Below are positions 1,542 to 5,737 of a stretch of 5,794 nucleotides of DNA, piece after piece (positions within the stretch are counted from its first letter, which is position 1; each line of letters begins with the position of its first letter). The stretch is from Helicobacteraceae bacterium (GTDB taxonomy: Bacteria > Campylobacterota > Campylobacteria > Campylobacterales > Sulfurimonadaceae): contig DAOWOG010000102.1 of assembly GCA_030642185.1 (NCBI GenBank), positions 1 through 5,794 on the forward strand. The letters run 5' to 3'. The notes under the pieces are model-generated. The model saw only the letters and a list, made by a program, of their open reading frames with translations. It had not been told where the DNA came from and ran no database searches. The position numbers and the translations under genes are program-made.

Positions 1542-1576
1542 TTATTACTCCACTAACTAAATACGCTAATAAATAG
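1542..1576 (+). repeat. Left terminal inverted repeat of the dyad element
   Basis: These 35 nt are perfectly reverse-complementary to 1777-1811. The sequence starts TTATTACTCCACTAACTAAA and ends AATAAATAG. The match stops at both edges (1541 against 1812 is a G/G mismatch; 1577 against 1776 is A/G), so the arm has sharp limits. Its CTCC at 1548-1551 is the complement of the mqnE Shine-Dalgarno in the right arm. Confidence 0.9.
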
Positions 1577-1674
1577 AAGCATTTAGAGATGTGGGATTTG
1601 GTGCTAAAAGTTTGTAGGACTAACTGGTTAATTCAAAAGCTTTTAGCAACGAAGATTGCATCTCTAAATGTTTC
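1576..1674 (+). repeat. Left hairpin of the dyad element (23-nt loop at 1614-1636)
   Basis: The outer stem pairs 1576-1591 with 1659-1674 (16 pairs, one G-T wobble at 1579/1671). The inner stem pairs 1602-1613 with 1637-1648 (12 pairs, one T-G wobble at 1611/1639). Between them is an imperfect internal loop of about 10 nt per side. The inner stem closes exactly on a 23-nt loop (1614-1636, beginning GTAGGACTAACTGG) that is perfectly complementary to the loop of the right hairpin. Confidence 0.8.
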
Positions 1675-1681
1675 CCGCAGG

Positions 1682-1777
1682 GCGGTTCTCTTAAGCCCTT
1701 ACTCTGCGTTAAAGTTTCTTGAATTAACCAGTTAGTCCTACGAAGCTTTGCCTTGATTAAGGGCTTAAGAAAACCGC
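1682..1777 (+). repeat. Right hairpin of the dyad element (23-nt loop at 1719-1741)
   Basis: The outer stem pairs 1682-1701 with 1758-1777 (19 of 20, with a C-A mismatch at 1688/1771). The inner stem pairs 1711-1718 with 1742-1749 (8 pairs, one T-G wobble at 1715/1745). The loop (1719-1741, ending GTTAGTCCTAC) is 23 nt, the same length as in the left hairpin and its exact reverse complement. The stem sequences differ from those of the left hairpin although the layout is the same. Confidence 0.8.
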
Positions 1778-1811
1778 TATTTATTAGCGTATTTAGTTAG
1801 TGGAGTAATAA
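1777..1811 (+). repeat. Right terminal inverted repeat of the dyad element
   Basis: These 35 nt are the perfect reverse complement of 1542-1576. The arm ends two bases before the mqnE ATG and contains its Shine-Dalgarno. Its inner edge can also form a small local hairpin, CGCTA-TTTAT-TAGCG (1775-1789), which would compete with long-range pairing to the left arm. Confidence 0.9.
1802..1805 (+). promoter_or_regulatory. Shine-Dalgarno of mqnE, embedded in the right terminal repeat
   Basis: GGAG lies 8 nt before the ATG at 1814. All of it lies inside the 35-nt right arm, so pairing with the left arm in the transcript would bury it in a long duplex. No other Shine-Dalgarno serves this start. Confidence 0.7.
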
Positions 1812-1813
1812 GT

Positions 1814-2875
1814 ATGAATGTGATTGAAAAAGTACAAGCCGGTGAACGTATCGGTTTTGATGAGGCGTTAACGCTTTATGATCTGGATATTTTTACACTC
1901 GGAGAACTTGCTGATCAGCGCCGACAGGCTTTGCACGGCAAAAAAACCTACTTCAATATCAACCGTCATATCAATCCGACCAATATCTGCAAGGATGTCT
2001 GCAAATTTTGTGCCTACAGTGCCAGCCGCAAAAATCCGCAGCCCTATACGATGAAGCATGAAGAAATCATGGCGATTGTTGACGACATCGCTGCACGCGG
2101 TATCAAAGAGGTTCACATCGTCTCCGCCCATAATCCCGAGACCGGGTTAGACTGGTATACCACGGTCTTTTCAAAGATAAAGGCCAAATACCCGCAACTG
2201 CACATTAAAGCGCTGACGGCGGCAGAAATTCATTTTCTGAGTGAAGAGTACAACAAGTCTTATGATGAAATTATCGACATTATGATCGAAAACGGGGTGG
2301 ATTCGCTTCCGGGCGGCGGTGCAGAGATCTTTGACGAAGAAGTACGCGATTATATCTGTAAAGGGAAAGTGACCTCCGATCAATGGCTGGAGATTCACCG
2401 AAAATGGCATGAACGCGGACGCAAGTCGAACGTGACGATGCTTTTCGGCCATATTGAAAAACGCAAAGACCGTATCGATCATATGATGCGTATCCGCGAT
2501 CTTCAGGATCAGACGGGCGGATTTAACTGTTTTATTCCACTGGTGTATCAAGGTGAAAACAACTTTTTGAATGTCAAAGAGTTTATCACCGCGCACGAGA
2601 TCCTCAAAACGATGGCAGTCAGCCGCATTGTGCTCGACAATGTCCCTAATCTCAAAGCCTATTGGGTGACATCGACGGTCAACCTCGCTTTGGTCGCTCA
2701 GGAATTTGGTGCCAATGATCTTGACGGTACCATTGAGAAAGAGTCCATCAACTCCGCCGCAGGTGCCAAAAGTGCCCATGGTGTTGATCTTGAAGAGTTT
2801 GTAAACCTCATTAAAAACAGCGGATTCGAGCCGGTAGAACGCGATAGCCTCTATAATGAATTGAAGGTGTGGTAA
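1814..2875 (+). CDS. mqnE: Aminofutalosine synthase MqnE (radical SAM, menaquinone synthesis by the futalosine pathway)
   Basis: The 353-residue product has the usual MqnE length. The family joins the enolpyruvyl carbon skeleton of 3-[(1-carboxyvinyl)oxy]benzoate to SAM-derived adenosine, releasing methionine and bicarbonate and yielding 6-amino-6-deoxyfutalosine, an early step to menaquinone. The radical SAM cluster motif CX3CX2C is C59, C63 and C66, in the context HINPTNICKDVCKFCAYSA. Other marks are LPGGGAEIF at 165-173, TMLFGHIE at 208-215 and FNCFIPLVYQ at 237-246. The HINPTN lead-in and TMLFGHIE favour MqnE over its paralogue MqnC (dehypoxanthine futalosine cyclase). The ATG at 1814 is chosen because GGAG lies 8 nt upstream and N-terminal alignment looks complete. 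The gene appears to be transcribed alone; a 77-bp gap with its own promoter follows. Its leader consists of the inverted-repeat element, which is odd for a probably essential respiratory gene. Confidence 0.93.
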   Translation: MNVIEKVQAGERIGFDEALTLYDLDIFTLGELADQRRQALHGKKTYFNINRHINPTNICKDVCKFCAYSASRKNPQPYTMKHEEIMAIVDDIAARGIKEVHIVSAHNPETGLDWYTTVFSKIKAKYPQLHIKALTAAEIHFLSEEYNKSYDEIIDIMIENGVDSLPGGGAEIFDEEVRDYICKGKVTSDQWLEIHRKWHERGRKSNVTMLFGHIEKRKDRIDHMMRIRDLQDQTGGFNCFIPLVYQGENNFLNVKEFITAHEILKTMAVSRIVLDNVPNLKAYWVTSTVNLALVAQEFGANDLDGTIEKESINSAAGAKSAHGVDLEEFVNLIKNSGFEPVERDSLYNELKVW

Positions 2876-2952: not shown

Positions 2953-3192
2953 ATGCACACGATGACTATTAATGTACAAGACACTGTCTATGAGCGTTTC
3001 TTGAAGTTTTTACAAAAAGAAGAGATACCAATTATCAAAGATGTTCGAGATGAAAATCTAAAATACGATCCTTATTTTTATGAACGTAAAGCACAGATAG
3101 AGAAGACAATAAAAGCGGTTGATGATGGCAGTATGCCAATGTATGATTTTAATGAGTCGATGGATAGTTTGATAGCTGATTTAGAAAAATAG
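2953..3192 (+). CDS. Putative type II antitoxin, partner of the RelE/ParE toxin
   Basis: This 79-residue acidic protein has the layout of small type II antitoxins. An N-terminal segment (MTINVQDTVYERFLKFLQK, 4-22) probably forms a strand and helix for dimerisation or DNA binding. A charged C-terminal part (about 38-79: YDPYFYERK..., DDGSMPMYDFNESMDSLIADLEK) resembles the toxin-wrapping tail found in this class. It is expected to neutralise the next gene's product and repress its own operon. The stop is 2 nt before the toxin ATG, indicating translational coupling. The ATG at 2953 is preferred over the ATG at 2962 because AAGGA lies 5 nt before the first and 14 nt before the second. The gene looks AT-richer than mqnE upstream, consistent with acquisition. 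The call rests mostly on size, order and the toxin next to it; the exact antitoxin family is not resolved. Confidence 0.72.
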   Translation: MHTMTINVQDTVYERFLKFLQKEEIPIIKDVRDENLKYDPYFYERKAQIEKTIKAVDDGSMPMYDFNESMDSLIADLEK

Positions 3193-3194
3193 CA

Positions 3195-3476
3195 ATGAAA
3201 ATTATTGAGACGAAACTTTTTGCAGGACAAAGAGAAGTCATTATTAAATTTATTGCTAAAGATAAGAAAAGTGCTGCACTGAATTTTGCAAGAGCATTGA
3301 AGTTAAGTGTTAACGACCTGATAAATTTTCCCTACAAATGTCGTCAATCAGATTACCATCACTCAAAACAGATTCGAGATATGACTTTTAAGGGCTATAC
3401 GATTGTTTATAGAGTAGACGAAACTGAAGAGATGATTGAAATTCTGGAAATATTTAACCGGAATAAACCGCTTTAA
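3195..3476 (+). CDS. RelE/ParE superfamily toxin
   Basis: The 93-residue basic protein fits the RelE/ParE fold. A helical N-terminal half (AKDKKSAALNFARALKLSVNDL, 21-42) is followed by INFPYKCRQS (43-52), as in the common NFPYMCRKS motif. Then come the strand block IRDMTFKGYTIVYRVDE (60-76) and a final strand IEILEIFNRNK (81-91). Members either cleave mRNA on the ribosome (RelE) or poison DNA gyrase (ParE); sequence alone does not decide which here. It is cotranscribed with the antitoxin 2 nt upstream in the usual antitoxin-first order. No Shine-Dalgarno of its own is obvious, so translation probably depends on coupling. It looks intact. It converges on cls with 33 nt between the stop codons. 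Confidence 0.83.
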   Translation: MKIIETKLFAGQREVIIKFIAKDKKSAALNFARALKLSVNDLINFPYKCRQSDYHHSKQIRDMTFKGYTIVYRVDETEEMIEILEIFNRNKPL

Positions 3477-5037: not shown

Positions 5038-5418
5038 ATGAAAAGACTTAAGACAAAATGGTTTGCCAAGTGGGCAAAAAAGCAGGAGCTTTCCAATAAG
5101 GATCTTTTGAAAGCGATTGACGATTTGAGTGATAATCTTTCAAGTACATCTCTTGGGGGAGGTTTGTTTAAAGTCCGAATAGCTATGCAGGGTAGTGGTA
5201 AAAGTTCTGCTTATCGCAGTATTGTTGTTTATCGTAAAAATGATAGAGCAGTTATGGTGTATGGATTTGCTAAAAATGAGCAGGAAAATCTATCTAAAAA
5301 CGAGCTAAAAGCTTTTAAGATATTGTCTAAAGATATATTAGCCTTAAGCACACAGGCACTTGACGAATCTATTGAGAAAAAAGTATTTTTTGAGATTGGA
5401 GAAAATGATGAGAGATAA
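5038..5418 (+). CDS. HigB/RelE-like toxin of a toxin-first type II module
   Basis: The 126-residue product resembles the RelE-type toxins found before XRE-family antitoxins. It begins MKRLKTKWFAKWAKK, like the family's FKTKWF start. It then has LGGGLFKVRIAMQGSGKSSAYRSIVVYR (39-66) with the Y59-R60 motif, and AVMVYGFAKNEQENL (71-85), a family hallmark. A helical tail follows. Related proteins are ribosome-dependent mRNA interferases; that activity is inferred here. The start matches the family N-terminus, but no Shine-Dalgarno precedes it, and the promoter predicts transcription starting at the ATG itself. The gene overlaps the antitoxin by 11 nt and is divergent from cls. It appears intact. 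Confidence 0.85.
   Translation: MKRLKTKWFAKWAKKQELSNKDLLKAIDDLSDNLSSTSLGGGLFKVRIAMQGSGKSSAYRSIVVYRKNDRAVMVYGFAKNEQENLSKNELKAFKILSKDILALSTQALDESIEKKVFFEIGENDER
5398..5401 (+). promoter_or_regulatory. Shine-Dalgarno of the HTH antitoxin, inside the toxin gene
   Basis: GGAG lies 6 nt before the ATG at 5408 and 3 nt before the adjacent ATG at 5405. The spacing favours 5408. Because the toxin seems leaderless, this site would let the antitoxin be translated more efficiently than the toxin from one mRNA. Confidence 0.6.
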
Positions 5419-5737
5419 TATTAAAGAATCTATCGCTTCAACCGTGAGTGATATGCTAAAGGCGGAGATGAAAGTCTCTTTTACAAAAAAAGAGCTTGAT
5501 GATATGGGTATTGAGATCGCACAGGTCTCCATACAGCCAAACGAGATTCAAAAGATTCGTAAAACTCTTGGAGTAAGCCAGTCCGTTTTTGCCAAACTTT
5601 TAAACGTGAGTCTGTCGTCGGTCAGACAATGGGAACAGGGTGCTCGCAAACCAAGCGGTTCGACTATGATACTATTGGAACTGCTTCAAAGAGAGCCGGA
5701 AATTTTAGATTATCGTCTTGGTTTGAATGTGGCATAG
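5408..5737 (+). CDS. HigA-like antitoxin with XRE-type helix-turn-helix
   Basis: The 109-residue product (110 if the ATG at 5405 is used) has an N-terminal toxin-binding region. It includes helical IKESIASTVSDMLKAEM (5-21), then FTKKELDDMGIEI (25-37). A clear XRE helix-turn-helix follows at about 46-82: EIQKIRKTLGVSQSVFAKLL, then NVSLSSVRQWEQGARKP. It should neutralise the toxin encoded just upstream and repress the shared promoter, with the palindrome at 5002-5021 as the likely site. The frame is open back to 5360, but that earlier ATG lies deep in the toxin gene without a Shine-Dalgarno. GGAG at 5398-5401 supports the start at 5408, overlapping the toxin by 11 nt. It ends 57 bases before the window edge, with no terminator visible. 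Confidence 0.86.
   Translation: MRDNIKESIASTVSDMLKAEMKVSFTKKELDDMGIEIAQVSIQPNEIQKIRKTLGVSQSVFAKLLNVSLSSVRQWEQGARKPSGSTMILLELLQREPEILDYRLGLNVA

Follow-up and report, generated by a model that had tools for sequence, protein, structure and literature searches.

MITEs are usually regarded as parasites tied by their ends to one transposase, and the members of a named MITE family are, to our knowledge, all bound to terminal repeats of a single kind. Interior sequence shared with a parent transposon is typical of many MITEs, though not required of all. Bacterial MITEs, such as QMITE2, NEMIS, RUP, Nezha and EFAR, are described as short, non-coding elements with terminal inverted repeats, target duplications and a stable foldback, likely moved in trans (PMC10969869, PMC3733652). 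TIMEs, which are Tn3-derived inverted-repeat miniature elements, likewise lack a transposase, and their simplest form is 262 bp long with 38-bp terminal repeats (PMC4133298). REPs are described as repeats of 20–40 bp ending in GTAG or CGTC, and it has been suggested that a wide range of transposases might mobilise the CGTC ones (PMC3733652). IS630 and IS5 elements code for their own transposase. Integron attC sites are imperfect hairpins with internal mismatches.

The sequence analysed here (the window) is a 5,794-nucleotide stretch of a Helicobacteraceae bacterium assembly, and it contains a 270-bp element comparable to each of these systems in part. Its family shares with bacterial MITEs all the features listed above but differs in joining one core layout to nine arm families at near-constant length. 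It is close to TIMEs in size, terminal repeats and the lack of a transposase; whereas TIMEs combine one Tn3-type end with varied inner modules, the present family varies its ends and keeps its inside. Opposed hairpins, multiple copies and an intergenic location are shared with REP, BIME and REPIN sequences, yet the present hairpins measure ~95 nt, stand inside 33-bp arms with IS-like target duplications and have no GTAG or CGTC tag at their foot, which sets them apart from REPs and REPINs as defined in PMC3733652. The terminal repeats of IS630 and IS5 are the tips of two of the arm families. From integron attC sites the element differs in consisting of two inverted hairpins inside transposon-like ends. 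No description of this element family was found in the open-access literature searched. We give a probability of a little over one half (roughly 0.53) to the reading that it is a gene-less mini-transposon of ~270 bp with a three-armed fold, whose swappable outer arm lets different IS-family transposases move the same core.

The first-pass annotation of the window had described perfect 35-bp inverted ends enclosing two hairpins with complementary 23-nt loops, and a repeat search together with a direct check bore this out: the terminal arms are 100% complementary over 35 nt, the arms of hairpin A (1576–1613 and 1637–1674) 76% and those of hairpin B (1682–1704 and 1755–1777) 91%, and the two loops are exact reverse complements over 23 nt (Table 1). 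Within 1542–1811 there is no ORF as long as 50 aa, and a motif scan of 1400–1900 gave no sigma-70-like match; TATAAT is present at 1515–1520. Two short terminator-like matches, one per strand, both fall at the right-arm palindrome, and the view that the element is something other than a simple terminator was sound; it is a repeated structured element with strong covariation.

Table 1. Features of the window element and its neighbour, IS5-family ends and the labelled arm families among 101 cores.
Feature	Position (strand)	Size or sequence	Evidence or number
Whole element: non-coding miniature transposon, predicted three-armed foldback	1542..1811	270 bp	same layout in 101 cores
Left terminal arm	1542..1576 (+)	tip TTATTACTCCACTAACTAAATAC	35/35 complementary to 1777–1811
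Hairpin A	1577..1673 (+)		consensus helices 1–2, 96–98% of cells paired, n = 45 elements
Hairpin A apical motif, itself a mini-hairpin	1614..1636 (+)	GTAGGACTAACTGGTTAATTCAA	
Centre separating the hairpins	1674..1682 (+)	CCCGCAGGG	
Hairpin B, hairpin A design inverted	1683..1776 (+)		helices 4–7, 91–98% of cells paired
Hairpin B apical motif	1719..1741 (+)		reverse complement of 1614–1636 in the window copy
Right terminal arm	1777..1811 (+)	GGAG at 1802–1805	pairs with left arm in predicted fold
mqnE (aminofutalosine synthase), beside the element, not part of it	1814..2875 (+)		NF006276, 649.6 bits, cutoff 560
Ends of IS5-family element		GGGCCTGTTGAC	
Arm family		tips like ATTACTCCAC/ATCACCGCAC	33 elements
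Arm family		tip AACCTGAGTTCGA	26 elements
Arm family		tip GGGCACCTCT	14 elements
Arm family		tip GAGACCAC	8 elements
Arm family		tip GGGCCTGTT	6 elements
Arm family		tip AGTACC	4 elements
Arm family		tip GGCGGCGTC	4 elements
Arm family		tip GAACCCTCTGA	2 elements
Arm family		tip GACTTGTTGC	2 elements

The element ends 2 nt before the ATG of mqnE, and its other neighbour is a divergent glnD-like gene (partial, below curated cutoffs). Four related loci (L263, L264, L266 and L270) have, by eye, a short element-free gap between mqnE and the apparent glnD start, three (L265, L267 and L269) have a different neighbour upstream of mqnE, and in the sole genome from the same genus the mqnE match was a distant one (37%). 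In sequence terms, the window element is an insertion at the mqnE site. The Shine-Dalgarno-like GGAG of its right arm stands 8 nt before the mqnE start codon and may serve mqnE as a ribosome site; the predicted fold sequesters it against the left arm, which might lower mqnE translation. Elsewhere in the window, two small adjacent ORFs of 79 and 93 aa without an NCBIfam match (2953–3476) form what we take to resemble a toxin-antitoxin pair, and a second possible pair of that kind lies at 5038–5737, where a 126-aa ORF with no NCBIfam hit precedes an HTH protein whose MqsA/NadS-like antitoxin matches are below cutoff.

The element region has 21 matches in its own genome, some of them overlapping or self-matches; those that were read comprise full elements, copies cut by contig ends and one version with hairpin B only, which sits in the same kind of arms. 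DNA matches to the element occurred in 6 of the 60 genomes searched, its own included. A structural scan that called for arms, the centre (one mismatch allowed), two foldbacks and a length of 245–300 bp, and made no use of the apical motif, gave 154 locus-level hits in 329 loci (1.40 Mb) and none in two dinucleotide shuffles. An earlier scan of fewer loci yielded 101 distinct cores, which are not independent because many come from the same genomes. The median element length there is 269 bp; 92 of the 101 measure 262–280 bp, a narrow peak that was not built into the 245–300 bp scan range, and arms are 30–36 bp long in 96. Several genomes hold more than one copy, among them G000, with five complete elements by structural scan plus partial copies, and G422. 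In the latter, the AP10.008 MAG, the arm tip AACCTGAGTTCGA is present in 175 copies in 1.7 Mb, with many of those listed lying near contig ends, and this abundance is a heavy amplification.

Departures from the common layout were also seen. Two loci (L003 and L128) hold single-hairpin elements, and two elements of G414 have an added segment between the arms (L292 1501–1850, 350 bp; L305 1501–1808, 308 bp), from which it appears that hairpin modules may be gained or lost. A 293-bp copy (L007 1053–1345) has extra bases in one hairpin loop and another tip abutting the element, and the element of L126 4106–4391, which is also the one in L255, owes its 286 bp to a tandem duplication of ~15 nt within a hairpin. 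Bare arm–arm' palindromes without a core were noted in G000 and G009 (L303 1501–1563, L296 1501–1559 and L300 1501–1547); they measure 63 bp in G000, 47–59 bp in G009 and 49 bp in G414, and are possible deletion products or arm donors.

The element is predicted to fold far more stably than expected for its composition, with an RNA MFE of −130.2 where shuffles average −59.9 (z −15.3; 0 of 200 shuffles as low) and a DNA fold at z −13.4 against shuffles. For comparison among copies, 59 elements were kept at first, of which 51 went on and 8 were dropped as false or irregular; the alignment (n = 50, after removal of one duplicate reading of an element) had four rows turned by eye, and the final 45 rows leave out four G414 rows and L199. 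The consensus of these 45 is a Y of 110 pairs, 98 of them with compensatory change, as predicted from the same alignment that was tested for covariation, and all share the outer arms, hairpin A, CCCnnnGGG and hairpin B. When the hairpins are taken without the arms, 96.3% of cells are paired and 65 of 77 pairs show compensatory change, with 0 of 500 shuffles as high and slid controls at 35–52% paired. The first-pass annotation was to be abandoned if relatives yielded neither copies nor covariation and probing gave no such structure; copies and covariation were both found. The aligned elements had been picked by the apical motif plus the CCCnnnGGG centre (at most one mismatch), so the conservation of both, including a CCC/GGG centre that is nearly invariant in the 45, is partly by construction, while the stems carry no such bias. 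The CCCnnnGGG centre was also read in Rhodobacterales copies located by the apical motif alone. Covariation of this kind need not reflect selection for a folded strand, since template switching alone can keep inverted repeats matched and create hairpin stems (PMC8794818).

The apical loops of the window are equal in length and complementary, as had been noticed, but neither is simply an open loop: both contain a self-complementary tip, CTAAC..GTTAA, with a mini-stem that covaries across copies (TAAC..GTTA, TAGC..GCTA, TACC....GGTA). A 23-bp loop–loop interaction or an alternative duplex had been proposed as the design of the element, and this we reject, because exact complementarity is found in only 2 of the 79 elements (the window and L042) whose two loops were readable among the 101; in most others the two loops have unlike mini-stems and, in many cases, unequal lengths. 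That the window's loops are equal and complementary follows from one motif carried by both hairpins in opposite directions. No apical motif was recognisable in 6 of the 101 cores, four of them from G429.

An RNA switch had been suggested. A structured RNA or RNA switch that acts on neighbouring genes and is spread by transposition would account for the very stable RNA fold and for the position of the window copy directly before a start codon with GGAG in its arm. It would also suit the excess of G.T over A.C cells across all predicted pairs of the hairpins (206:14 for hairpin A, 84:36 for hairpin B and 31:26 for the arms), although the structure was chosen with RNA energies, which favour G.U; when the count is limited to columns that are at least 75% Watson-Crick, the ratio reverses to 12:36 for hairpin B, with 67:13 for hairpin A and 27:22 for the arms. 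A simple ORF finder allowed the setting of 81 of the 101 elements to be scored (14 were incomplete and 6 too far); of these, 51 lie between co-directional, 18 between divergent and 12 between convergent genes, and the orientation at the 51 co-directional sites is evenly split at 27:24. Gene 5' ends face the element 87 times versus 75 for 3' ends. An even orientation together with all kinds of intergenic setting argues against a cis-acting RNA and for a transposon. Rfam gave no match in the window at E up to 1, and in five other loci two plant microRNA matches far below threshold, one of which (E 0.23) overlaps the element of L124. With loop–loop pairing not conserved either, we consider an RNA switch quite improbable.

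The ends of the element tie it to known transposons. The first 23 bp of the window arm are identical to one end of a complete IS630-type element in another genome (G038; L029 1501–2617), whose other end agrees with the window tip in 21 of 23 positions and whose 345-aa transposase is of the DDE_3 type; in G038 the listed matches to the complete window element are confined to the IS630 tips and do not reach the interior. For a second arm family, a Paracoccus plasmid holds an IS5-family element that carries TAGGGCCTGTTGACGTTC at either end, the two ends agreeing in 17 of 18 positions; the transposase pieces of this element match DUF4096 and DDE_Tnp_1. A matching IS is thus known for 2 of the 9 arm families; no transposase ORF was recognised by eye beside orphan tips in the loci examined, and no IS was found for the other families. 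Near one element, L237 holds a partial ORF (1577–1891) that we take to resemble an IS1-type transposase.

Target duplications were counted after omission of elements that lie close to a contig end or lack a recognised tip, and with one GGGCACC element (L040) wrongly placed among the IS630 rows. On this count a 3-bp duplication flanks 16 of 23 AACCTGAG elements versus 2.4 expected on re-pairing, and a 4-bp duplication flanks 5 of 10 GGGCACC elements versus 1.9 expected. TA flanks both sides of 4 of 5 GGGCCTGTT elements, and re-pairing gives the same; in the window's own arm family TA was seen in 26 of 31 versus 22.6 expected, where it is indistinguishable from the palindromic tip. Differing duplication lengths between arm families fit different transposases.

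The first-pass view that ordinary MITEs lack such a design was correct as regards the common core and exchanged ends, which are unusual, but not as regards the ends and target duplications, which are those of a MITE. It is possible to go further and regard the arm families as IS deletion derivatives, that is, ordinary MITEs, around an old passenger core whose fold and length have no function. The terminal repeats, the target duplications of two arm families, the multiple copies and the lack of coding capacity in 270 bp with perfect 35-bp repeats all sit well with this, template switching can create and maintain hairpin stems (PMC8794818), and arms mostly follow core lineages. We nevertheless consider it unlikely, since a single core layout is common to arm families with dissimilar tips and the interior is not shared with the one IS630 compared, that of G038, where the listed matches lie at its tips only. 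A neutral passenger would, moreover, hardly keep 262–280 bp in 92 of 101 elements, nor CCCnnnGGG in Rhodobacterales copies located by another motif.

All but two of the arms carried by the 101 cores, which stay unassigned, belong to nine families, labelled from patterns in the tips; that the tips are dissimilar is a judgement by eye. On a tree built from the core only (200 columns, quick method, several long branches), the arm label changes at least 14 times, where the minimum possible for ten labels is 9. At the same time, 25 of 26 AACCTGAG elements form one clade, and labels cluster far beyond shuffles, from which it follows that arms mostly follow core lineages and full swaps are rare: arms are inherited over long periods and replaced now and then. 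Three arm families occur in each of G000 and G249, and two in each of G009, G170, G300, G425 and the genome of L138, with cores there 50–80% identical.

The clearest case of an arm swap comes from an uncultured Rhodobacteraceae genome (G426), where the cores of L252 and L253 are 95.1% identical over 204 nt while only 9 of 20 tip bases are alike, other different-family pairs in the same comparison giving 6–12. By eye, the two diverge on both sides at the three-way junction, and keep their arm length, at 32 and 31 bp as counted to the same core base; the branch joining L126, L252 and L253 has a support of 89 and is not starred. A third core of this genome, L257, is 92.6% identical to L252, 94.6% to L253 and 87.7% to L255, whose core carries an insertion. 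Its arm (GGGCCTGTTGCC...) shares with that of L253 (GGGCCTATTGATAAC...) a tip of ~10 bases and differs in inner sequence; the inner arm still resembles that of L255, so some replacement is mainly of the outer part. The arm is likely an exchangeable adaptor.

The replaced arms of L252 and L253 could also be explained if the core were mobile in its own right, through an enzyme such as a recombinase on folded single strands, and inserted into the middle of existing arm–arm' palindromes. Bare palindromes of 47–63 bp with the same kind of arms occur in G000, G009 and G414, but they may be deletion products, the palindromes of G390 span 22–79 bp by tip positions whereas core arms are nearly constant, and no linked enzyme gene was noticed in passing. 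We regard a core with its own enzyme as very improbable. An Xer/dif-like site or attC, which the window element loosely resembles, is not favoured either.

Elements were found in Campylobacterota, Rhodobacterales and Bacteroidota MAGs. Across the order, 29 of 398 genomes, spread over 18 of 88 genera, contain the 14-letter apical pattern GGACTANNNNNNTAATTCAA, against a reversed control pattern with one hit in each of 6 genomes; at least three pattern hits (L039, L054 and L060) have no surrounding hairpin and look like chance. A scan of the genome collection with an 18-letter motif gave at least 120 stretches. Among the 80 matches listed, 69 are Campylobacterota (Hippea included), one is labelled only 'bacterium' and ten are others: six Cyclobacteriaceae, Lutibacter, a Dehalococcoidia that looks like chance, an uncultured Rhodobacteraceae and the isolate Pseudaestuariivita rosea. 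In wider samples the exact 18-mer was rare: a single genome among 395 Bacteroidota and another among 385 Alphaproteobacteria had it, in both cases the seed genome. DNA similarity extended to 7 of 198 genomes of the Rhodobacterales seed's family, the seed included and some matches weak. Plasmid records gave no match to the window element and none to a second arm string, while the Rhodobacterales element had one plasmid match, in Terrarubrum flagellatum, from which records of Rhizobium and Roseibium were reached. The layout is the same in the Terrarubrum and Rhizobium copies, though their apical tips differ, and in the Roseibium record the structural scan did not recover the arms. Although matches in MAGs could be misbinned contigs, the P. 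rosea isolate and the Terrarubrum, Rhizobium and Roseibium plasmid records are not explainable by misbinning. Viral contigs held no exact 18-mer and phage records gave no match, which rules against a phage origin.

Transposition and arm exchange are read here from comparison of copies rather than from observed movement, and how the arm is exchanged and what the core does we can only infer. For a mini-transposon with exchangeable arms, an IS630 transposase would move window-type elements in trans via their matching arms, and IS5 and other transposases would do the same for elements bearing their arms. Arms would be exchanged by template switching on the folded strand, with the bare palindromes in some of the same genomes perhaps donating them. 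The folded core would bring the two ends together whatever transposase acts, a role that would explain why length and fold are conserved rather than ends. The function of the core is probably one in DNA. Template switching alone could keep stems matched (PMC8794818) but would hardly hold the total length.

We see an even chance that these elements represent a class of mobile DNA defined by fold and length instead of ends, in which a two-hairpin core changes its arm, as one helical module, at the three-way junction. Carried by IS630, IS5 and further transposases one after another, such a core would have reached Campylobacterota, Bacteroidota and Alphaproteobacteria. The family also carries a warning that covariation in a repeat can come from a DNA transposon and not from RNA, and it turns what lies between the ends of a MITE, and why, into an experimental question. 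If the reading is true, elements of constant interior and changeable ends would parasitise transposons in general through adaptor swapping, which would explain how a gene-less element can outlive single transposon families and cross phyla.
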